A stretch of 44,418 nucleotides of DNA from positions 1 through 44,418 of the forward strand of contig JAHDSB010000140.1 in the NCBI GenBank assembly GCA_018433015.1, read 5' to 3'. This stretch comes from Clostridia bacterium (GTDB lineage Bacteria > Bacillota > Peptococcia > DRI-13 > SV3-B141). This document shows positions 4,189-44,228 of this stretch, piece by piece. Position numbers and translations under genes: made by a program. Within the stretch, counting starts at the first letter, position 1. Each line of letters begins with the position of its first letter. A model generated the notes under the pieces. The model saw nothing but the letters and a program-made list of their open reading frames with translations, did not search any database and was not told the DNA's origin.

Positions 4189-4740
4189 GTGAGAATAATA
4201 GCCGGTACAGCCAAAGGTCATAAAATTAAAGCTGTTAAAGGATTGAATACTAGACCTACATTAGATAGAATAAGAGAAGCCATATTTAATGTTCTTGGTA
4301 ACTCTGTAATTGATGGAAATTTCTTAGATTTATTTGCAGGTACTGGAGCAATGGGTATAGAAGCATTAAGCAGAGGAGCTAAGCAAAGTTATTTTAATGA
4401 TGTGAATAAAAAGGCTTACCTGACTATTCAACAAAATATTGAAACATGTCATTTTAAAGATTACAGTAAAGTGTTTAATATGGATGTTTTTCGTTTTCTA
4501 GAATTTCTGGAAAACGAGCAAGAGCGTTTTGATATTATATATGTAGACCCTCCTTATAACAAGCAGCTATACGAACCTATTATGCAAAACCTGGAAATGG
4601 CTAGTTTTATTAATCCCGACGCCCTAATAATTATCGAAGGAAGTAAGGATTTTCAGTTGCCACTAAAGACTAATAAATTAGAATTAATAAAAAAGAGTCT
4701 TTATGGAGATACGTTAATTTTATATTATCGATATATCTAA
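4189..4740 (+). CDS. rsmD: 16S rRNA (guanine(966)-N(2))-methyltransferase RsmD
   Basis: RsmD methylates N2 of G966 in 16S rRNA using S-adenosylmethionine. The 183-residue length is normal. Visible motifs: N-terminal RIIAGTAKGHKI and TRPTLDRIREAIFN, the SAM-binding loop DLFAGTGAMGIEALSRGA, and the catalytic DPPYN. The start is GTG at 4189, with caaggagttg ten bases upstream. In many Firmicutes the next gene is coaD (phosphopantetheine adenylyltransferase); here the next gene is a coiled-coil protein instead, so coaD must be elsewhere. Confidence 0.94.
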   Translation: MRIIAGTAKGHKIKAVKGLNTRPTLDRIREAIFNVLGNSVIDGNFLDLFAGTGAMGIEALSRGAKQSYFNDVNKKAYLTIQQNIETCHFKDYSKVFNMDVFRFLEFLENEQERFDIIYVDPPYNKQLYEPIMQNLEMASFINPDALIIIEGSKDFQLPLKTNKLELIKKSLYGDTLILYYRYI

Positions 4741-4756
4741 AAATGGGGGATAGTAA

Positions 4757-5236
4757 ATGGAAATATTACATATATTAGATGAATTAGAAAATTATGTAGA
4801 GGAATGTTCGCGAATACCTATGACTGGTAAAGTTATACTTCACGAAGATATCTTATACGATTTTTTAGATAAAATCAGGGCTATGTTGCCTGAAAATATG
4901 CAAGAAGCAGAGTGGATCCTACGGGAAAAAGAAAGAATTCTAAAAGAAGCTAAGAAGGAATCAGAAACCATTATTGAAACAGCACAAAATAAGCTGCAAC
5001 GTATTACCGGTGAAAGTGAAATTGTGAAGATAGCAAATCAGCAAGGTGAAGAAATAATTACTAATGCTAAAAATGTAGCTAAGGAAATAACCCAAGGTTC
5101 TTTTAATTATGCTGATGATGTCATGGCCCAATTACAATCAGAGTTAGAAAGGATACAACTGGTAGTTAGAAAAGGCAGAGAAGAATTAAGACAGAACATA
5201 CGCCAGACTAACAATCAAAATAAGAATGCAGGATAA
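4757..5236 (+). CDS. Coiled-coil protein of unknown function (ATPase-subunit-like)
   Basis: The 159-residue product starts at ATG 4757, sixteen bases after rsmD, so the two are probably cotranscribed. Residues from about 55 onward are dominated by Glu, Lys, Gln and Ala in a heptad-like pattern (EAEWILREKERILKEAKKES), which predicts a long coiled coil. The N-terminal part, with LENYVEECSRIPMTGKVI, resembles a Clostridia family often labelled DivIVA-like or V-ATPase subunit H-like. There is no transmembrane segment and no nucleotide-binding motif. The family is conserved in position near rsmD/ylbJ in related bacteria by my recollection; the role is unknown. Confidence 0.7.
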   Translation: MEILHILDELENYVEECSRIPMTGKVILHEDILYDFLDKIRAMLPENMQEAEWILREKERILKEAKKESETIIETAQNKLQRITGESEIVKIANQQGEEIITNAKNVAKEITQGSFNYADDVMAQLQSELERIQLVVRKGREELRQNIRQTNNQNKNAG

Positions 5237-29827: not shown

Positions 29828-29911
29828 GATAGGTTGTATTCCCGAAGTACTTCGGGAAACATCCAAATGGGGAAGTATTCCCGAAACAGGTTCGGGAATA
29901 AGATGTTATCT
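29828..29911 (+). other. Array-boundary recombination site (attI-like or degenerate attC)
   Basis: The segment holds TATTCCCGAAgtacTTCGGGAAA and GTATTCCCGAAacaggTTCGGGAATA, followed by AGAT and GTTATCT (29905-29911), the first base of which starts cassette 1. The core ATTCCCG...CGGGAAT is shared with the L boxes of the attC sites downstream. The left flank (ggataggttg) pairs poorly with the right, unlike the true sites, so it may be the primary insertion site or a decayed attC. Confidence 0.55.
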
Positions 29912-29979
29912 GAAATTGGTCGCAGGGAACGGCGCGTCCTGCGGCGGATTAATCAATCTTAATTTAAGGAGGAATCGAA

Positions 29980-30468
29980 ATGGATCAAATGACTCTTACG
30001 GTTCTAACAGAGATAGGCACTAATTTAACCAATTTGGCAGTAAAAGGTACAGTTTCGGCAGTTAGCAATAAAATTAAAGCAATTAAGTTAGAAAAAGATG
30101 CTGAAACTATAAAGAATAAATATGACGAGATTATTAATGAGTTGCTCTCAGAGAGAGAAGAAGCAATTAGAATTGCTCAAGTATATAAAAGCGAGTTGGA
30201 AAAGTACGTTATAAGTGATGAAGATATTCAACATCTACACAATACTGTTGGAAGAGTACTTGAAATATTAAAAAAGATGAGTCCTAATACTCCGTTAGAA
30301 ACCTATGAACAATTTAAGGAATTGATCAGTGTTGATACGTTGAAATCAATGCAATTGCTCGGTTTCAATTATAAGGCAGCTATTGGAGAGCCGTTAACTC
30401 AACTATGTTCAAATGCTATACTATCAAAATCGAAGGCTCAAAATTTACCTAGGAAAAATAAAAAATAA
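29980..30468 (+). CDS. Cassette 1: coiled-coil protein of unknown function
   Basis: The 162-residue product starts at ATG 29980 behind a strong taaggagga site. It is mainly helical, with a Lys/Glu-rich central coiled coil (about residues 30-75, EKDAETIKNKYDEIINELLSE region) and a C-terminal part ending in a basic tail, PRKNKK. The N-terminal helix LTEIGTNLTNLAVKGTVSAVS is amphipathic and alanine/threonine-rich and could touch a membrane, but no true transmembrane segment is clear. I do not recognise a family. The gene fills cassette 1 and its terminal site begins 66 bases after the stop. Upstream near 29781, ATGGATCAAAATGA echoes this gene's start and may be a remnant. Confidence 0.75.
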   Translation: MDQMTLTVLTEIGTNLTNLAVKGTVSAVSNKIKAIKLEKDAETIKNKYDEIINELLSEREEAIRIAQVYKSELEKYVISDEDIQHLHNTVGRVLEILKKMSPNTPLETYEQFKELISVDTLKSMQLLGFNYKAAIGEPLTQLCSNAILSKSKAQNLPRKNKK

Positions 30469-30533
30469 ATATATCTTAAATATATGGAGTCGCCGTCCAT
30501 GGCAACTGCTGAATATGGGGGTCGACCAACTTC

Positions 30534-30729
30534 ACTTAACACAACATTCCCACAAGGGTGCGGGTTAGCGAGTTCAACGTGGGTTTGCTTTTGGAGAAGG
30601 GCTGAAGTCTGCCGCACCACATCCTCAAACCTAACCGAGTAGGCTCGTCCAAACCCAAGATAGGAGCTATCTTGGGTTTGGACGAGCCTGTAAGGTTTGA
30701 GGACGTCGGAAATGCTGGACACGTTATCG
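30534..30729 (+). repeat. attC-like site 1 (196 bp)
   Basis: Outer boxes are ACTTAAC (30534-30540) and GTTATCG (30723-30729). Arm 1 pairs GGTGCGG with CCGCACC; arm 2 pairs CCTCAAACCT with AGGTTTGAGG and holds a nested CCAAACCCAAGATA stem. The flank before the left box reads, reversed, GTTAAGTGAAGTTGGTCG, matching the start of cassette 1 (GTTATCTGAAATTGGTCG). Confidence 0.85.
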
Positions 30730-31348: not shown

Positions 31349-31543
31349 CGATAACCCAATATTACCGCAAGGGCACGGCTTAGCGAGTTCAGCGGGGGAT
31401 GGAATTTGGAGAAGGGCTGAAGCTAGCCGTGCCACATCCCTTCGCCAACCGAGGCGATGCCCGCATTAGCCGACCCAAAGGGTCCCCGGCATGAGCGGTC
31501 ATCTGTAAGGCTCAGGGACGTCGGTAATACATTCACGTTATCT
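31349..31543 (+). repeat. attC-like site 2 (195 bp, type B arm)
   Basis: Outer boxes are CGATAAC (31349-31355) and GTTATCT (31537-31543). L boxes AATATTACCG and CGGTAATAC pair. Arm 1 is GGCACGGC/GCCGTGCC. Arm 2 differs from most sites: it carries the sequence GAGGCGATGCCCGCATT and GACCCAAAGGGTCCC, shared only with site 9. The left flank GCAGCATCCGATAAC, reversed, matches the start of cassette 2, GTTATCGGAAACTGC. Confidence 0.83.
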
Positions 31544-32319: not shown

Positions 32320-32396
32320 AGATAACAGTGAATTCCCAAAATCTGAGGTAATAAGAAAGCAATAACCAGACTTCGGGAATTCACGGAACGTTCTCC
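32320..32396 (+). repeat. attC-like site 3 (77 bp, short form)
   Basis: Outer boxes are AGATAAC (32320-32326) and GTTCTCC (32390-32396); L boxes GTGAATTCCC and CGGGAATTCAC pair. At 77 bp it falls in the length range of classical attC sites and lacks the two long arms. The left flank GTCCGTCAGATAAC, reversed, matches the start of cassette 3, GTTATCTGACAGAC. Confidence 0.82.
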
Positions 32397-32590
32397 GAAA
32401 TCACACGCGATAACGCGGCGTCCTGCCGCGAATTGTTTTAGTGGAGCTTTGGAGGTTTTATTGGTCCTATTAGTAGAATTATGTGCAATAATTCGAAGGA
32501 TAAGTTCTTATATGAACATGAGCAGTTAAGAAAGCATGGTCTAAAAAGAGGTTCAAAATAGTAGCTTCGTTAAAAAAGGAGGATGGTTCA

Positions 32591-33733: not shown

Positions 33734-33827
33734 TACACATTTTTTATAATATATGCAATATAAATCAAGCAGGACTTTTAAGGGTGCGACGTCCTGTCGC
33801 CCTCTGAGTCATGGGGCGTGTGCCTTC

Positions 33828-34023
33828 GGAGAACACAGCATTCCCGCAAGGGTGCGGATTAGCCTGTTCAACGTGGGTTTGCTTTGGGGATGGGCTGAAG
33901 CCTGCCGCACCACATCCTCAAACCTAACCGAGTCGGTTCGACCAAACCTAAGATAAGAGCTATCTAAGGTTTGGCCTTCACCTGTAAGGTTTGAGGACGT
34001 CGGGAATGCTTGGCACGTTCTAC
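33828..34023 (+). repeat. attC-like site 4 (196 bp, reference copy)
   Basis: Outer boxes are GGAGAAC (33828-33834) and GTTCTAC (34017-34023). L boxes GCATTCCCG (33838-33846) and CGGGAATGC (34001-34009) pair perfectly over nine bases. The spacers between R and L are unequal, 3 nt (ACA) on the left and 7 nt (TTGGCAC) on the right. Arm 1: GGTGCGG 33851-33857 with CCGCACC 33905-33911. Arm 2: CCTCAAACCT 33916-33925 with AGGTTTGAGG 33987-33996, enclosing CCAAACCTAAGATA 33942-33955 paired with TATCTAAGGTTTGG 33961-33974. Confidence 0.87.
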
Positions 34024-34173
34024 GACATATCGTGCAAAGGCCGCGCCATCCTTGGCGCGGAAAATAACTTAACACTGAATGTAATCAGTATTCTAATATC
34101 CCTGAGAGTTTATGCGGGGCTTAGTTATAAAGAATGAATTAATTACTCTATTTTTAACAAAGGGGATGTAAAA

Positions 34174-35550: not shown

Positions 35551-35730
35551 TTAGATATTTGAATAACAAAAGTATATAGAAATTCTATTATATTATTTTT
35601 TACAATTACACATCATGAGCATATTGTTAAGTTATTCATCATTCTTTTTATTGGGTTATTTAAAAATTACGCAGTTATACTTAAGGCAGCGCCGTCCGTG
35701 ACGCTGCTGAGTCTGGGGGCACGAGACGTC

Positions 35731-35926
35731 GTAGAACACAGCCTTCCCACAAGGGTGCGGATTAGCAAGTTCAACGTGGTTTTGCTTTGAGGAAGGGCCG
35801 AAGCCAGCCGCACCACATCCTCAAACCTAACCGAGGCGGCTCGCCCAAACCAAAGATAAGAGCTATCTAAGGTTTGGTCTTCGCCTGTAAGGTTTGAGAA
35901 CGTCGGGAATGCTTGGCACGTTAAAT
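35731..35926 (+). repeat. attC-like site 5 (196 bp)
   Basis: Outer boxes are GTAGAAC (35731-35737) and GTTAAAT (35920-35926). The right box fits the classical GTTRRRY consensus. L boxes GCCTTCCC and GGGAATGC pair imperfectly. Arms as in site 4. The left flank, reversed, GTTCTACGACGTCTCGTGC, matches the start of cassette 5. A hairpin, GCAGCG...CGCTGC, lies at 35686-35707. Confidence 0.85.
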
Positions 35927-36206: not shown

Positions 36207-37142
36207 TTGAGTCAAAATAAATCCAAAGACTTTAATGTTTATTATCTTAATTTTACCAAAATATATGAAATTGCTATGATGATAAACAATGTTATACTAA
36301 CAAAAATAGAAAATGATCGTACGAAAAGCTTTGAGGAACAATATGGCTTTATGTCATCTCTTTCTGCTCAAGGAACAAAAAAGTTCCTTGATGGAATTAA
36401 AGCTTCTATTTCTGCCGATGCAAAAGAAACATCATTTTCATCTTCAAGGGTAGTTGAAACTTTAGATGTAAAAACAACGAAATCAATACTCCTTCGTAGA
36501 GTAATCGAACAATGCTCCCATGTTTCTTCTTTTGAAAAGTCTTCTGAAGGTGATCTTGTCAAAGTCGACAATGTGAAGTTAGAGCTTCTAGATGAAGAAA
36601 GTCTGAGGCAATTTCTCATTTTAAGGAGAGATGCTTTAAAAGGTGTTCGTATTGAAGGTATGGAGTTAAATAATTTGGTCAGTTCCATGCTTCAGGATTA
36701 TGCTTATATTCTTAAGGGCGCAGTATACGATAATGTCAAAGAAAATGCTATAGCAGAAATTATCATTAAGATCCCATTGGAAATCCAAACTGAATTTGAA
36801 AATAAATATAGCATTAATGACTTGCTCATTGGACATGTCTCCATTGTAGGCATATATAAAGGGGTTGTTAAAGAAGAATTTATATCTTCAAACACTTTTA
36901 CTTATTTCCAAGAAGTTGGTATGAGACAAAAGCAGAATGCCGAAAGTGCCTCAAAAATAATAAAAAGTGCTACTTGCCCATCCGAAACTCTACAGCTATC
37001 TCAAAAAGAAAAAGAGTATTATTTTTTAGATACTCTTGCTATTATACAAGATGTCATTTTTAACCTTGAAGAGCCTCAAATTCCAAAACTGCATTGGTGG
37101 AATAGACTTGGAATTTGGCTTAGTAAACTAAGGAGGGTATAG
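36207..37142 (+). CDS. Cassette 6: unknown protein paired with AAA+ ATPase (DUF6414-like N-terminus)
   Basis: The 311-residue product starts at TTG 36207 behind gaaaggag. The N-terminal segment FNVYYLNFTKIYEIAMMINN recalls DUF6414-type proteins, a weak resemblance. Residues 40-120 are rich in Ser and Lys (KFLDGIKASISADAKE), and the middle has a beta-rich part (AIAEIIIKIPLEIQ, GHVSIVGIYKG). The C-terminus, HWWNRLGIWLSKLRRV, is amphipathic and basic and could touch a membrane. It ends three bases before the AAA+ gene, so the two are a tight pair. The region 35927-36206 upstream is AT-rich leader with one hairpin (35943-35963) and a possible -10 box TATAAT at 36141. Confidence 0.72.
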   Translation: MSQNKSKDFNVYYLNFTKIYEIAMMINNVILTKIENDRTKSFEEQYGFMSSLSAQGTKKFLDGIKASISADAKETSFSSSRVVETLDVKTTKSILLRRVIEQCSHVSSFEKSSEGDLVKVDNVKLELLDEESLRQFLILRRDALKGVRIEGMELNNLVSSMLQDYAYILKGAVYDNVKENAIAEIIIKIPLEIQTEFENKYSINDLLIGHVSIVGIYKGVVKEEFISSNTFTYFQEVGMRQKQNAESASKIIKSATCPSETLQLSQKEKEYYFLDTLAIIQDVIFNLEEPQIPKLHWWNRLGIWLSKLRRV

Positions 37143-37145
37143 GCA

Positions 37146-38684
37146 ATGTCCCTCTACATCATATATACATATAACAGCGTAGAACAATTGCGGCAAATTC
37201 AACGGGAAAAAGAAGTTGTTCCTTTTATTTTCGCTGAAGCTAAAGATCTATTGGAGGACAACAAAAACCTTTGTATAGATATTTCGGCACTAATTTATTT
37301 GTTGCGGACTAATAAGGAGAATAGGTACTCTGCATACATTAATCTTCGTGAAATGACTGAGGAAACTACTGTAATCGTAGAGGAATCGATTGCGAATGAT
37401 GCTATAAACTTCTTTCCCTGTTTATTTTCTTCTTACACTGCATTTTGTCGAGAAGAAAATGTGCAAAATAGCAATAGACTCCTAGATACATTTAAGAATG
37501 CTCGTCAGTCAATATACACGTATAACAATGTGAATGATTTAACTGCTATTATCAAATATGCCAATGTACACAATATTCCCATTACCACTTTTTCGCGTGC
37601 CTCAGGCGATTTAAGAAATGAATTAGAAAAATTCAATAAATCAGCTAAATTAGCACTAGTGGACTTAACGTCTATAGCTTATGCAATTGAAGATAATAAA
37701 AATCTTATTTATACTGTAGAGTTGTTTATGAACGCATTTCCAAACATAAAGATAATTGCTTTGACTTCTCAAGTTGATAAGATAATTAAGTATTTCCCGT
37801 TATATATTGAAGATCAGCAACCAATAAACACCCTTTTACCTGACTTGGAAGATCTTACTCCGATAGAAACTATTGTTGATGAAGTAAAAAAAGTTACATT
37901 ATTATCGGCATCTGAATTTGATTCATTTATTGAGAGCTTTAATCATAATCTTGTTGGGCACGAATATTTCAAAACACGATTTAAATATTGTCTTAAGAAT
38001 TTTATTGCGCTGAATAAAGTAAAAGAGCAGAAGGTTCTTTCAATCTTTTTATTTGGTGTATCTGGAATAGGTAAAACAGAAGTTGCCCGCTTAATAGCAA
38101 ATGGGCTACTGAAAGATAGTTATTTGGCCAAAATAAACTTTCAAAATTACAGCAGCCAAGATGCACTGAATAGCCTTATTGGCAGCCCTGCTGGATATAT
38201 AGGATGCGGACATGGAGAGTTGAGTGACAAGGTTAAAAAGAGCAAAGTAGGAATCATTTTAGGTGATGAATTTGAAAAGACCACTAGACCAGTACGTTCT
38301 TTCTTTCTGGAATTGCTCGAAGAAGGGAAATTCACTGATTCTATGACTCGTGAATATGACCTTGACGGCTATATTTTAGTATTTACATCTAATCTCCAAA
38401 ATGAAGACGAATACAAGAAAATAATGTCGCCGGAGTTGCAGACTCGTTTTGATTTAGTATGCGAATTTCAAGAGCCGTCTTACCATGATAAAACTAAATT
38501 TCTTGACTTATTGCTGGAACAAGCCGAAAACAAGTTCCTTGAGCAATTTTCTCAAATACAAATGACACCAGAAGAAAAACAAAAGCTATATGATTTCGAT
38601 TATTCAAGTCTAAATGCGCTAAGAGATATAAAAAGGTTATTTAATAATCGTCTAATGGATTTCTTTTTCTCAAAAGGAGTATAA
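37146..38684 (+). CDS. Cassette 6: ClpB-like AAA+ ATPase with novel N-terminal region
   Basis: The 512-residue product has a C-terminal AAA+ module of the ClpA/B type: Walker A GVSGIGKTE at residues 304-312, a pore-loop-like segment SPAGYIGCGHGELS, Walker B with Asp374-Glu375 (IILGDEFEK), sensor 1 VFTSN, the arginine finger in LQTRFD, and sensor-2-like ALRDIKRLF. There is only one ATPase domain and no Clp protease-binding loop that I recognise. The first 240 residues show two similar halves around CIDISALIYLL and ALVDLTSIAYAI, perhaps a duplicated alpha/beta fold. Such ATPase plus partner pairs are typical of defence or protein-remodelling systems, but this is inference. Confidence 0.8.
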   Translation: MSLYIIYTYNSVEQLRQIQREKEVVPFIFAEAKDLLEDNKNLCIDISALIYLLRTNKENRYSAYINLREMTEETTVIVEESIANDAINFFPCLFSSYTAFCREENVQNSNRLLDTFKNARQSIYTYNNVNDLTAIIKYANVHNIPITTFSRASGDLRNELEKFNKSAKLALVDLTSIAYAIEDNKNLIYTVELFMNAFPNIKIIALTSQVDKIIKYFPLYIEDQQPINTLLPDLEDLTPIETIVDEVKKVTLLSASEFDSFIESFNHNLVGHEYFKTRFKYCLKNFIALNKVKEQKVLSIFLFGVSGIGKTEVARLIANGLLKDSYLAKINFQNYSSQDALNSLIGSPAGYIGCGHGELSDKVKKSKVGIILGDEFEKTTRPVRSFFLELLEEGKFTDSMTREYDLDGYILVFTSNLQNEDEYKKIMSPELQTRFDLVCEFQEPSYHDKTKFLDLLLEQAENKFLEQFSQIQMTPEEKQKLYDFDYSSLNALRDIKRLFNNRLMDFFFSKGV

Positions 38685-38816
38685 AATGTCATTGCATACG
38701 CAAGGCTCTGGGATAATGGGTATTATCCATATTATATAAAATCACCAAGAATAGCTTTGTGAGATTTGAGGAGTCGCCGTCCATGGCGACTGCTGAAGCT
38801 CGGGGCGACAAACTTC

Positions 38817-39012
38817 ACTTAACACAGCATTCCCGCAAGGGTGCGGATTAGCTGGTTCAACGTGGGTCTGCTTTTGGGCTGGGCTGAAGCCAGCCGCACC
38901 ACATCCTCAAACCTAACCTAGGCGGCTCGTCCAAACCTAAGATAGGAGCTATCTAAGGTTTAGCCTTCACCTGTAAGGTTTGAGGACGTCGGGAATGCTG
39001 GGCACGTTAGCT
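38817..39012 (+). repeat. attC-like site 6 (196 bp)
   Basis: Outer boxes are ACTTAAC (38817-38823) and GTTAGCT (39006-39012). L boxes GCATTCCCG and CGGGAATGC pair fully. Arms as in site 4, though the nested stem has small changes (AAGATAGGAGCTATCT). The left flank, reversed, GTTAAGTGAAGTTTGTCGC, matches the start of cassette 6, GTTAAATGAAATTGGTCGC. A perfect hairpin AGTCGCC-gtccat-GGCGACT lies at 38772-38791. Confidence 0.86.
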
Positions 39013-40024: not shown

Positions 40025-40147
40025 AGCTAACAGTTAGAGATTTATGATGTTCGAAAGAGCCAAAATAAAAAAGTCCCGTCTCGTATGAAGAAACGGAACT
40101 TTCTAAAGGAGCCAATGATCCAGAACATCATGAATCTAGGGTTGTAC
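40025..40147 (+). repeat. attC-like site 7 (123 bp, distinct sequence)
   Basis: Outer boxes are AGCTAAC (40025-40031) and GTTGTAC (40141-40147). The main stem is AGATTTATGATGTTC with GAACATCATGAATCT, and an inner stem is AAAGTCCCGT with ACGGAACTTT. It shares the logic but not the sequence of the 196-bp family. The left flank CAACTTCAGCTAAC, reversed, GTTAGCTGAAGTTG, matches the start of cassette 7, GTTAGCTGAAATTG. Confidence 0.8.
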
Positions 40148-40342
40148 TGAACCGTCTGCAGCTGGAATCACAATTATTGCAATCAAATATCCTCAGATGC
40201 CAGAATAGCTAAATTTCAATACCATAATATAACAAATAATAGTAACGACAGCATACAAAATGAGTAAAAACACTAAAAAAGGGTACACTTTCCCCCTCCC
40301 CAAAAAGGGGCATTTAAAAAAACATATGAAGTTAAATGTAAG

Positions 40343-41443
40343 TTAAGGAACGGGAATTCCCGGATTAACAATACCAGCGAAAACCATAGACCCCCTACAA
40401 AGAGGACAAGGCCTGATGTATCGTTCAACCTTAAGAAAAAAAGATATAATACCAGAGAGTCTAAAACAAAGGGAAAGCTTAGATTTAATATTGCAGCTAG
40501 AAAGAATACCGTAATGTCTAATCCTAGTAAATCCAGAAGGAAGCACATGAAGAAGGAACCTTCTTACAAATTCCTCAATCTTAAGAGTCATTAACTTAAC
40601 CTTACAGTCATCCTTGTAATCCTTCCACTTGAAAGTAACAGTACTTTCATTAAAATCAACAATCCTGGAATTAGAAATAGCAACTCTATGAGTGTAACGA
40701 CCTAAATATTTAACAACAATATCAGGAGACTTAAAAGGTTTCTTGCTAAAAGCGACCCAATCCAAGAGATATAAAGTATCGATAAAATTTAAGAAATTAG
40801 TACCATAACTCAGATTTACAGCATTTCCAAAAAACTTAATATTCTCAGTTTGCCAAGCACGTTTCAAATAAAAAAGGAACTTACCTCTAAACTTACGGGA
40901 TAAAACCTTTACAGGGATAAAAAAACTTTTACCAGAACGGACAAACCTAAGACCATCAAGAGAAAGGCCACCTCCTGGGACAATACAATGAACATGAGGA
41001 TGAAAAGAAGGATTCTGACCCCAAGTATGAAGAATAACAGTAGCTCCAGACTGAGCACTGAAAAACTTAGGATCCCTGGCAAGCTCAGTAATCGTATCGC
41101 CTGCTGACTTCAAAAGGAGAGAATAAAGGAGCTTCTGATTCTGATAAATAACAGTGTTAAGTTGACTAGGTAGAGTAAAAACCAAATGAAAATATGGTAC
41201 AGGTAAAATCTTAGATAATTGAGCTTGAACCCACTCATATTGTTTAGAACCCTGACACTTAGGGCAGTGCCTGTTTCTACAAGAATTGTAGGAAATATTA
41301 ATATGACCACAACTGCAACACCTATCCACATGAGAACCGAGGGCAGTTGAACGACAATTTCTAATAGCATAAAAAGCCTTACGTTGATCAGGAGAAAGTC
41401 CAGTAGGAGATATAGCATTAAAAACATCCTGGAGTTCAACCAT
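40343..41443 (-). CDS. IS91-family transposase (HUH/Y2 type)
   Basis: The enzyme nicks one strand through tyrosine and moves the element by rolling circle. The 366-residue product from ATG 41443 has an N-terminal zinc-binding domain (CCSCGHINISYNSCRNRHCPKCQ, residues 42-63), the HUH motif HPHVH at 148-152 and two tyrosines, Tyr246 and Tyr250, in VVKYLGRYTHRVAIS. A second Cys group (CPLC) lies near the C-terminus. I chose ATG 41443, as the conserved family begins with this segment and the start overlaps the recombinase stop (ATGGTTGA). It appears intact. It runs against all cassette genes. Confidence 0.92.
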   Translation of the reverse strand: MVELQDVFNAISPTGLSPDQRKAFYAIRNCRSTALGSHVDRCCSCGHINISYNSCRNRHCPKCQGSKQYEWVQAQLSKILPVPYFHLVFTLPSQLNTVIYQNQKLLYSLLLKSAGDTITELARDPKFFSAQSGATVILHTWGQNPSFHPHVHCIVPGGGLSLDGLRFVRSGKSFFIPVKVLSRKFRGKFLFYLKRAWQTENIKFFGNAVNLSYGTNFLNFIDTLYLLDWVAFSKKPFKSPDIVVKYLGRYTHRVAISNSRIVDFNESTVTFKWKDYKDDCKVKLMTLKIEEFVRRFLLHVLPSGFTRIRHYGILSSCNIKSKLSLCFRLSGIISFFLKVERYIRPCPLCRGSMVFAGIVNPGIPVP

Positions 41444-42275
41444 GAAAAACACCTGAATCCAAAGGGCTTTTAACGGAACTAAGACGATTAGTAGAAAGAT
41501 GAAGATAAATACAAGTAGTGTTAATACTGGCATGACCTAAAAAAACCTAAATAGTCCTAAGATCCGTATTATTCTCCAAAAGATGAGTAGCAAAGCTATG
41601 ACGAAGAGAATGAACAGAAACAGGTTTAGAAATACCGGCTTTAACCTTAGCAACCTTAAATACCTGTTGAATATTTCTTGCAGCAAGAGATTTTCCAGGG
41701 GATTGACCTGGGAAAAGGAATCCCTCAGGTTTATAGACCTTCCAATATTTCCGCAACATAATTAAATTCTGTTGACCTAAGATAGTAAACCGATCTTTTT
41801 GCCCTTTACCAGAACGAACTCTAATAAGCATATTCTGAGAATCTATATCTGAAGAAACTAAATTGAGTACTTCGCTGATTCTAAGGCCAGAAGAATAAGC
41901 AGTATGTAGGATGGTCTTATGCTTTAGATTAGAGACGTGATGCAGGATAGAGAGAACCTCATCATTAGAAAGTACATAAGGAAGTTTCTTAAGCTTTTTA
42001 GGTCGAACAATAGTATCATCTGAAAAATTACGATTTAGCACAGAGTTAAACATGAGCTTAAAAGCATTGCAAGAAATATTAATATTACTATAGCTGATGC
42101 CAGTCTTAATTCTGTGATGAAGATACTGTCTTATATCATCAGGAGTGATTTGATTTACTGGTTTACCGAAATGCCTTTCAAGTAATCGGACATGATTAAG
42201 ATAATGTTTTTGAGTTTGCTGAGAGTAGCAGCGTAGTTCCATTTCAAACTTCATTTTTTCATAATAAGTAGACAT
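41436..42275 (-). pseudogene. Tyrosine recombinase of the IS91 element, amber stop at codon 243
   Basis: From ATG 42275 (aggaagg nine bases upstream) the frame encodes a XerD-like recombinase: SAM-like N-terminal domain, the catalytic Arg in SSGLRISEVLNL, Lys in GKGQKDR and the HSLRHSFATHLL box. Codon 243 is TAG (41547-41549), within what should read DLRTIQVFLGHAS; reading on in the same frame gives VFLGHASINTTCIYLHLS with the last catalytic His and Tyr, and ends at TGA 41436, overlapping the transposase start. CAG to TAG is one transition. The shortened protein would be inactive. It lacks the extra segment that marks integron integrases. Readthrough is an untested alternative. Confidence 0.85.
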
Positions 42276-42357
42276 ATAAAACATCCTTCCTATAAAGTAT
42301 TTACAGAAAGGATGATACCACGAAAGATTATGTTGGGAGCCATCGCGCAGCGATTTA

Positions 42358-42553
42358 GTACAACAGAGCATTCCCACAAGGGTGCGGGTTAACGGGTTCA
42401 ACGTGGGTTTGATTTTGGGGAAGGGCTGAAGCCGGCCGCACCACATCCTCAAACCTAACCGAGGCGGCTCGTCCAAACCTAAGATAAGAGCTATCTAAGG
42501 TTTGGTCTTCACCTGTAAGGTTTGAGGACGTCGGGAATGCTTGCACGTTATCG
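42358..42553 (+). repeat. attC-like site 8 (196 bp)
   Basis: Outer boxes are GTACAAC (42358-42364) and GTTATCG (42547-42553). L boxes GCATTCCC and GGGAATGC pair; arms as in site 4. The left flank, reversed, reads GTTGTACTAAATCGCTGC and matches the start of cassette 8, GTTGTACTGAACCGTCTGC, showing that the IS91 element lies inside a genuine cassette. Confidence 0.85.
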
Positions 42554-42651: not shown

Positions 42652-42685
42652 TTAAATATGAAGAATATTTAATGAGGTGTATTAT

Positions 42686-42859
42686 ATGAGTATGGCGGAA
42701 GAGTTATTGAAAAAGTTTGAGGATCTTCCAGAAGACAAGAAAAGACAGGTAATTGATTTTGTTGATTTTCTTAAGCTAAAAGAAAGAAAAGATATTATAG
42801 ATATGATGGATGGCATAATTAGCGAAAACAAAGAAGCTTTTCAGGAGCTAAGTAAATGA
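42686..42859 (+). CDS. Cassette 9: antitoxin of a Doc-type pair
   Basis: The 57-residue product starts at ATG 42686 behind aatgaggtg. The sequence AEELLKKFEDLPEDKKRQVIDFVDFLKLKER resembles DUF2281-type or Phd-like short antitoxins. It overlaps the toxin start by four bases (ATGA), so both are translated as a unit. The C-terminal half, DIIDMMDGIISENKEAFQEL, probably binds and masks the toxin. Family assignment is tentative, position is strong evidence. Confidence 0.78.
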   Translation: MSMAEELLKKFEDLPEDKKRQVIDFVDFLKLKERKDIIDMMDGIISENKEAFQELSK

Positions 42860-43245
42860 TGAAGTTTGTCGCTTTTGAAGAAGTTGTTTATTTTCATAAG
42901 AAGATTATACAAGCTACAGGTGGCAGTTATGGCATAAGAGATATAGGATTAATTAAAAGTTCCCTAAATAGGGCTTATGTTACTTTTGATGGACAAGATT
43001 TATATAAGGAGAATAAGGATAAGATTGTTGCTATCACTTATAGCCTTATAAAAAACCATGGATTTATTGATGGAAATAAGAGAATTGGTGTTGCTGTAAT
43101 GTTACTATTATTGCGGTTGAACGATATAAAAATAGAATACACACAGAAAGAACTAATAGAATTAGGGTTAGGGATTGCAGATGGTTCTTTTGATGAAAAG
43201 GAAATAAAGAGATGGATAACAGACCATCAGATTGACGTTAAGTAA
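42856..43245 (+). CDS. doc: Cassette 9: Doc/Fic-family toxin (death on curing)
   Basis: Doc toxins carry the Fic fold and phosphorylate EF-Tu to halt translation; the neighbouring antitoxin neutralises them. The 129-residue product fits Doc length, with the N-terminal VYFHKKIIQATGGSYGIRDIGLIKSSL and the active site HGFIDGNKR at residues 68-76 (His68, Asp72, Lys75, Arg76). Classical Doc has Ala in place of the Gly before Asn. The downstream RIGVAVMLLLLRLNDI is conserved. The gene is intact. Toxin-antitoxin pairs are common in large chromosomal integrons, where they stabilise arrays; this fits the context. Confidence 0.88.
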   Translation: MMKFVAFEEVVYFHKKIIQATGGSYGIRDIGLIKSSLNRAYVTFDGQDLYKENKDKIVAITYSLIKNHGFIDGNKRIGVAVMLLLLRLNDIKIEYTQKELIELGLGIADGSFDEKEIKRWITDHQIDVK

Positions 43246-43299: not shown

Positions 43300-43495
43300 A
43301 GATAACACAGCATTTCCACAAGGGTGCGGATTAGCAAGTTCAACGTAGGTTCACTTTGGGGCGGGGCTGAAGAGTGCCGCACTACATCCCTTCTGCCAAC
43401 CAAGGCGATGCCCGCATTATCCGACCCAAAGGGTCCCCGGCATGAGCGGTCATTTGTAAGGCTCAGGGACGTCGGGAATGCTGGATACGTTCTAC
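43300..43495 (+). repeat. attC-like site 9 (196 bp, type B arm)
   Basis: Outer boxes are AGATAAC (43300-43306) and GTTCTAC (43489-43495). L boxes GCATTTCC and GGGAATGC pair. Arm 1 is GGTGCGG with GTGCCGC nearby; arm 2 carries the GGCGATGCCCGCATTA and GACCCAAAGGGTCCC sequence shared with site 2. The left flank, reversed, GTTATCTGTAGTATCGACG, matches the start of cassette 9, GTTATCGGAAATATCGACG. Confidence 0.85.
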
Positions 43496-44144: not shown

Positions 44145-44228
44145 GTAGAACAAAATGTTGCCGCAAGGGCGCGTGAGGTATAAATATGGAGTAATCGCGC
44201 CACAGCCCTATCGCTAACCGAGACCAGC
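44145..44228 (+). repeat. attC-like site 10 (truncated)
   Basis: The left box GTAGAAC (44145-44151) and arm 1 (GGGCGCG with CGCGCC) are present, followed by the opening of arm 2 (CTAACCGAGACCAGC), then similarity stops. No L' box or GTT right box is found before 44418. The left flank, reversed, GTTCTACGACGTATCG, matches the start of cassette 10 only over GTTCTAC. Confidence 0.7.

Follow-up and report, generated by a model that had tools for sequence, protein, structure and literature searches.

The long repeats of a 44,418-nt contig from a Clostridia bacterium (JAHDSB010000140.1, assembly GCA_018433015.1), analysed over its whole length and referred to here as the window, are best explained as attC-type recombination sites of an integron-like cassette array distinct from the canonical IntI integrons, a reading to which we assign a probability of about 0.86. 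The evidence that carries it can be read from the sequence and consists of a cassette array, a conserved branched core within the sites, complementarity between the two ends of each cassette, a recombinase-attI-array layout and breakpoints at GTT. As in integrons, the cassettes of the array lie in one orientation and each gene is accompanied by one attC. Coordinates of the window features are collected in Table 1.

Table 1. Recombination sites, structural elements and cassette genes in the window
Feature	Position	Strand	Description
attI-like site, array head	29839-29904	+	20-bp palindrome and second dyad, then junction ATAAGAT/GTT at 29905
Cassette 1	29905-30722	+	gene 29980-30468, 162 aa; start GTTATCTGAAATTGGTCGC, end (reverse complement) GTTAAGTGAAGTTGGTCGA, 15/20 complementary
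attC S1	30534-30729	+	196 bp, R'' to R'
attC S2	31349-31543	+	195 bp; L stem AATATTACC/GGTAATA; different multi-hairpin arm in place of arm 2
attC S3	32320-32396	+	short type, 77 bp; cassette ends match both neighbours
Extended R'' arm and upstream GTCC-loop hairpin	33783-33834	+	GGGGCGTGTGCCTTCGGAGAAC pairs with cassette start 32390-32408
attC S4, reference site	33828-34023	+	196 bp; R'' GGAGAAC 33828-33834, R' GTTCTAC 34017-34023
S4 L''/L' stem	33838-33846 with 34001-34009	+	GCATTCCCG with CGGGAATGC, 9 bp; fold and covariation
S4 arm 1	33851-33911	+	GGTGCGG 33851-33857 / CCGCACC 33905-33911, 7 bp
S4 arm 2	33912-34000	+	ACATCCTCAAACCT / AGGTTTGAGGACGT, 14 bp; encloses hairpin 33942-33974 and a second small hairpin
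Start of next cassette	34017-34063	+	GTTCTACGACATATCGTGC pairs with cassette end 35719-35737; GTCC-type hairpin downstream
attC S5	35731-35926	+	196 bp
Phage-defence candidate PDC-M37A/B, two cassette genes	36207-38684	+	E 4.5e-86 and 2.1e-155
attC S6	38817-39012	+	196 bp
attC S6b	40025-40147	+	short type, 123 bp, stem about 15 bp
IS91-family Y2 transposase	40343-41443	-	inside cassette 40141-42364
Group B tyrosine recombinase	41547-42305	-	without HARP domain; in-frame TAG near C-terminus; frame points away from S7
attC S7	42358-42553	+	196 bp
attC S8	43300-43495	+	196 bp
attC S9	44145-44223	+	truncated, left part only

When the window sites were measured from R box to R box, the six sites of 196 bp and the one of 195 bp claimed in the sequence-only reading were recovered. 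The near-fixed site length also proposed there describes these seven but is not strict, as sites of 77 and 123 bp occur in the same array. These short attC-like sites (S3 and S6b) differ in architecture from their 196-bp neighbours, and the presence of both types in one array means that several site classes may serve it. In the genome to which the window belongs (a 3.75 Mb assembly in 197 contigs), 31 site matches were found on contigs C4, C34, C49, C23, C46, C155 and C162, with full-length sites of 195-202 bp. As the window's family consisted of this genome only, its order was taken as the comparison set, and site DNA matches were observed in 12 of 25 genomes and 10 of 17 genera. An iterated profile search yielded 73 full-length sites from 10 genomes, those of relatives being 156-216 bp long with a median of 195 bp. 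The occurrence of these matches across the genome itself and the order is not due to chance.

The sites had been proposed to be long attC elements with a 9-bp L stem and two arms, the second enclosing a further stem, which would fold as a three-way junction. Folding of S4 as DNA supports this architecture and reproduces its topology, with the refinement that arm 2 encloses two hairpins. The bottom strand folded at -45.2 kcal/mol (z -6.13, none of 200 shuffles being as good) and the top strand at -41.4 kcal/mol (z -4.95). Instead of the single bottom-strand hairpin with extrahelical bases that characterizes a canonical attC, a junction of order at least three closed by a terminal stem was predicted for the bottom strand of 53 of the 73 sites. 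The imperfect palindrome of attC formed by R''/R' and L''/L' is present, its sequence varying while the structure is kept.

Absence of compensatory changes had been named as the result that would count against the branched structure. RNAalifold applied to a MAFFT alignment did not recover the arms, an outcome attributed to alignment gaps, and changes were instead counted in 54 sites of the order using ungapped segments fixed by conserved anchors, which prevented the structure from influencing the alignment. As a null model, whole half-stems were shuffled among sites of the same genome 2000 times. In the L stem, 330 of 432 cells were Watson-Crick pairs compared with a shuffle mean of 299.6 and maximum of 323, and in arm 2 the corresponding values were 566 of 756 compared with 483.9 and 527; in neither case was any of the 2000 shuffles as good. 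Several positions of the stems are occupied by two to four kinds of Watson-Crick pair and show 10-22 double changes, and variants of the L stem include GCATTCCC/GGGAATGC, GGCTTCAC/GTGAAGCC, GTCTTCCC/GGGAAGAC and GCATCTCC/GGAGATGC. The L stem and arm 2 are thus rich in compensatory changes, and the branched structure withstands this comparison; arm 1 was inspected by eye only, a pair that is T-A in S4 being C-G in most relatives. In some sites arm 1 is held in common while arm 2 is wholly different, and others have mismatched L halves (31349-31543 and 43300-43495 in the window; 4497-4792 of locus L015), as if half-sites had been exchanged.

The spacing between R and L boxes had been given as 3 nt on the left and 7 nt on the right. 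The asymmetry is real and conserved, with a left spacer of 3 nt in 44 of 54 sites, but the right spacer is not fixed at 7 nt, being 6 nt in 36 sites and 7 nt in 13. Within the R boxes AAC and GTT are conserved, with GTTA in 50 and TAAC in 49 of 65, whereas the full canonical consensus GTTRRRY / RYYYAAC was found in only 12 of 65 (R') and 16 of 65 (R''). Many sites, in the window (33783-33805, 34042-34063, 38770-38790 and 30486-30506) and in many relatives, are closely flanked by small hairpins whose loop is of CGTCC type; these fall at cassette ends as well as at cassette starts.

In integrons, a single R box gives rise to both the 5' start and the 3' end of a cassette, which are therefore complementary. 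The same relationship was observed here: read from GTT, each cassette start matches its own end, read in reverse complement from AAC, and the match often continues for about 20 nt, as illustrated by GTTCTCCGAAATCACACGC at R' of S3 and GCGTGTGCCTTCGGAGAAC at R'' of S4. Among 65 adjacent cassettes a mean of 5.31 of 7 positions beyond GTT were complementary, compared with 3.47 for non-adjacent pairs of the same genome, and the sum of 345 was reached by none of 10,000 within-genome permutations, the best of which gave 290. A scan for AAC..GTT is unspecific alone and was used only together with cassette-end complementarity and an upstream control. Such complementarity, starting exactly at GTT, is what marks circular cassettes that recombine at G^TT, and the integron-type crossover, with the start complementing the cassette's own attC end, thus appears to operate here. 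As the complementarity extends to about 20 nt, the outer arm reaches well past the R boxes, and once a cassette is circular its site probably measures closer to 230 bp than to 196 bp.

Cassette movement at this point is suggested by two Paenibacillus strains that share a 770-bp cassette (89%), placed first, after attI, in one (L175, junction cataaattagat/GTTAAGTGAAAT) and further along, after an attC, in the other (L157, gaatacaggaac/GTTAAGTGAAAT). Homology begins at exactly GTT and ends within the next attC, which is the pattern that would be expected of site-specific insertion at G^TT. Pairs of Paenibacillus loci have up to 6.9 kb in common upstream of the recombinase and few cassettes in common downstream.

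A conserved top-strand A.C mismatch, corresponding to G.T on the bottom strand, was present at position 3 of arm 2 in 52 of 54 sites and at position 11 of the R arm in 41 of 50 cassettes, pointing to the bottom strand as the folded substrate. Folding energies of the two strands did not differ on average over the 73 sites (36 favouring one and 36 the other; Wilcoxon p 0.97), so that a choice of strand by stability, with the bottom strand better folded on average, was not supported. The strong structure on both strands and a conserved loop sequence could also be taken to indicate an RNA element, or a mobile repeat of MITE or REP type beside genes ordered by coincidence. We regard this as very improbable, since it is contradicted by the pairing of each cassette's start with its own end and by the breakpoints at GTT, and the conserved A.C speaks against an RNA of the top strand; a known RNA was set aside because no Rfam family matched the window.

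An attI-like site lies at the head of the window's array. Its first dyad is a perfect 20-bp palindrome, TTCCCGAAGTACTTCGGGAA (29839-29858), and its second is TATTCCCGAA-ACAGG-TTCGGGAATA (29876-29900), the dyad centres being 40 bp apart. In related loci, the first cassette start could be located by its complement in 44 of 83 recombinase loci, placing the junction at a median of 102 bp past the recombinase stop codon. Ahead of this junction lies a pair of inverted repeats centred near -17 and -57; both dyads were found in 13 of 45 sequences compared with 0.7 expected from shuffles, and the site is particularly clear in Halonatronum, where AACGACATATGTCGTT occurs twice. On this basis the integron feature of an attI adjoining the recombinase gene appears to be present. 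No remnant of such a recombinase was detected above noise beside the window attI-like site, nor was an intact or full-length copy found in a search of the window's genome in its 197-contig assembly. As the attI-like site is present, the window represents an array head whose recombinase has been lost or lies in an assembly gap, and the array looks stranded and CALIN-like: an attI remains in this genome along with some 30 sites, and an intact recombinase of this type was not found.

The recombinase concerned, termed group A, is a tyrosine recombinase of approximately 370 aa encoded directly upstream of arrays and in the same orientation. It heads arrays in three genomes of the order: G014 (contig C58), G012 (C70) and G003 (C45, where the gene is truncated). 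In G003 and G005, which belong to two genera, the gene follows argF-argG-argH (L104, 2296-7465; L088, 104-4456), a neighbourhood that suggests a fixed chromosomal home for the recombinase.

To determine how far the association extends, named genomes were scanned with the group A alignment, so that loci were picked by recombinase alone. This gave 80 group A loci from Paenibacillus, Saccharibacillus, Cohnella, Alkaliphilus, Clostridium, Acetivibrio, Pseudobacteroides, Halonatronum and Desulfosporosinus, and from Nitrospirota, Atribacterota, Bacteroidota, several archaea and others. For the 41 loci with at least 1.5 kb on either side of the recombinase, direct repeats were found downstream in 32 and upstream in 5, cassette-type ends numbered 83 downstream versus 2 upstream, and one or other feature was present downstream in 40 loci and upstream in 7. 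A contig end lay within 600 bp downstream in 24 of the 80 loci and upstream in 3, as expected of repeats that break assemblies. Sites of about 100 bp in Saccharibacillus, read from sequence, have an L stem around three small hairpins and are thus branched too. A Chryseobacterium plasmid (NZ_CP041688.1; L206) carries a recombinase of this type followed by cassettes with repeated ends GTTGGGAAAAATCG in the same layout, together with a group II intron and an IS110 element.

The array-associated recombinase is not IntI. None of the 25 genomes of the order encodes a protein that scores above the cut-off of the IntI model TIGR02249, for which the positive controls IntI1 and a phage IntI gave 507 and 394 bits. 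Group A proteins scored 196-228 bits against a cut-off of 265, with the alignment broken at model positions of approximately 177-230, and phmmer aligned them with structure 2a3v in two separate pieces. The distance between the GKG and HxLRH motifs is 66 residues in group A compared with 106-108 in IntI and about 72 in XerC/D; the additional domain, or insertion, specific to IntI is absent from group A. As this domain was looked for and found lacking, the system is not an integron by the usual definition; in the other features that sequence could reveal, it works like one. An ordinary IntI integron or CALIN with merely long attC sites, mobilised in trans by a canonical IntI, would agree with the R boxes, which partly resemble the canonical consensus, and with the rare canonical integrons and CALINs known in Firmicutes (PMC9024848). 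This explanation is nonetheless improbable, given the lack of a TIGR02249 match and the different recombinase at the head of arrays in other taxa (the 40 of 41 loci above).

Group A scored 181-208 bits with the XerC and XerD models TIGR02224 and TIGR02225, below their cut-offs of 335 and 330. Its best NCBIfam score was obtained with XerA_Arch (NF040815, cut-off 220), at 228-243 bits in Clostridia and 210-213 bits in Paenibacillaceae. In a tree of 74 proteins, group A formed a clade with an IS91-linked recombinase group, group B (99/94), placed beside IntI (100/97), the three being set apart from XerC/D (100/100). Because the tree contained four IntI and no XerA, placement of group A as sister of IntI is provisional; the protein labelled 'Xer' in this sample (L061) is a group B recombinase (G002:C41).

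Group B is represented in the window itself, where the IS91-type transposase and the group B recombinase form a cassette (40141-42364) with start GTTGTACTGAACC and end GATTTAGTACAAC. Comparable recombinase-attC pairs were present in L084, L101 and L107. It might be supposed that this IS91-associated enzyme, itself a cassette, is the working recombinase in the window's genome in place of the HARP-type enzyme, as it is nested with group A in the tree, is encoded in four loci near an attC and oriented away from it, and belongs to an element with cassette ends. We consider this unlikely: the in-frame TAG interrupts the window copy, and among the few group B proteins examined none stood at an array head in the manner of group A. 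Elsewhere in the array, a Fic/DOC-domain protein and a small upstream partner, resembling a toxin-antitoxin pair, share one cassette (42677-43245).

Group A differs from other tyrosine recombinases compared here by an N-terminal domain of approximately 75 residues, predicted with a mean pLDDT of 90.7. The best PDB sequence match of a profile of this domain was the HARP domain of SMARCAL1 (4o66, E 0.0021). The Pfam HARP family (PF07443) matched 14 of 40 members weakly at E values of up to 1 (best 7.6e-4), and the sole score recorded for group A was 18.6 bits against a gathering cut-off of 25. HARP was absent among the matches listed in a structure search with the whole model, where the recombinase domain filled the rows, and the N-terminal domain was therefore searched alone. 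Foldseek then returned XPB structures first (E 0.02, probability 1.00), with 4o66 also present; the matched XPB region is, we assume, the damage-recognition domain (DRD). The weak sequence match and modest match of predicted fold indicate a domain like HARP and the XPB-DRD. The annealing-helicase activity of SMARCAL1 needs its HARP region (PMC4035279), and by analogy it would be natural to suppose that the HARP-like domain of group A binds branched DNA.

We infer the strand that folds, the roles of the HARP-like domain and of the arms, and the catalysis, and propose the following scheme for array assembly. Each cassette circle would carry a single site, assembled from a GTT half at the 5' end of the cassette and, at its 3' end, R'' together with the branched core. 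The tyrosine recombinase with the HARP/XPB-DRD-like N-terminal domain would act at G^TT on the folded strand, which is most likely the bottom one. The cassette would enter either at another attC or at the attI-like site, whose two dyads lie immediately downstream of the recombinase gene. Binding of the branched single-stranded substrate would probably be aided by the HARP-like domain, which would stand in for the IntI-specific insertion.

Compared with canonical integrons, such as those of class 1 and of Vibrio chromosomes, the system shares one-orientation arrays, palindromic R and L boxes, an apparent G^TT crossover, an attI beside a tyrosine recombinase gene and cassette turnover between strains. 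It differs in that the IntI-specific insertion is missing from the group A recombinase, whose N-terminal domain is HARP-like, its gene points into the array with the 3' end next to attI, the attI has two dyads, and the attC sites are multi-branched and up to about 216 bp long. A reversed integrase orientation relative to the usual layout has been described for integrons of Spirochaetota (Treponema; PMC9668308); the integrase there is a true IntI with the additional domain. The window's array as assembled resembles a CALIN in having attC sites without an intact cognate recombinase, but its site class and cognate recombinase are not of IntI type and the attI-like site is still there. Group A resembles XerA, XerC and XerD in that XerA_Arch gives its best score, above cut-off in some members, and is distinguished from them by the HARP-like domain, the association with arrays and a place in the tree by IntI instead of XerC/D. 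Its N-terminal domain matches SMARCAL1 HARP and the XPB damage-recognition domain in profile and predicted fold, although it is fused to a tyrosine recombinase and theirs to a helicase.

No description of an integron-like system with a HARP-domain recombinase was found in the open-access papers that the literature search covered. Integron surveys rely on the IntI-specific domain and on attC models, and Firmicutes have been said to be almost without integrons, with one complete example in Limnochorda pilosa (PMC9024848). A second integron lineage could have been overlooked in Gram-positive bacteria and archaea. We consider it likely that these arrays represent such a lineage, sister to the IntI integrons and based on a HARP-domain recombinase acting on multi-branched folded DNA. 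It would be widespread in Bacillota (Paenibacillus, Saccharibacillus and Clostridia) and extend to Bacteroidota, Nitrospirota, Atribacterota and archaea, and the IntI-specific insertion would then not be a general requirement of integron function. If HARP-headed arrays are working integrons, the view of their near-absence from Firmicutes would change and a large and so far unsought pool of mobile cassettes would open, including acetyltransferases, toxin-antitoxin-like genes and phage-defence candidates. The branched sites would lend themselves to work on how a recombinase recognises a DNA junction, and a comparison of the two sister enzymes would make the origin of single-stranded folded DNA as a recombination substrate directly testable.
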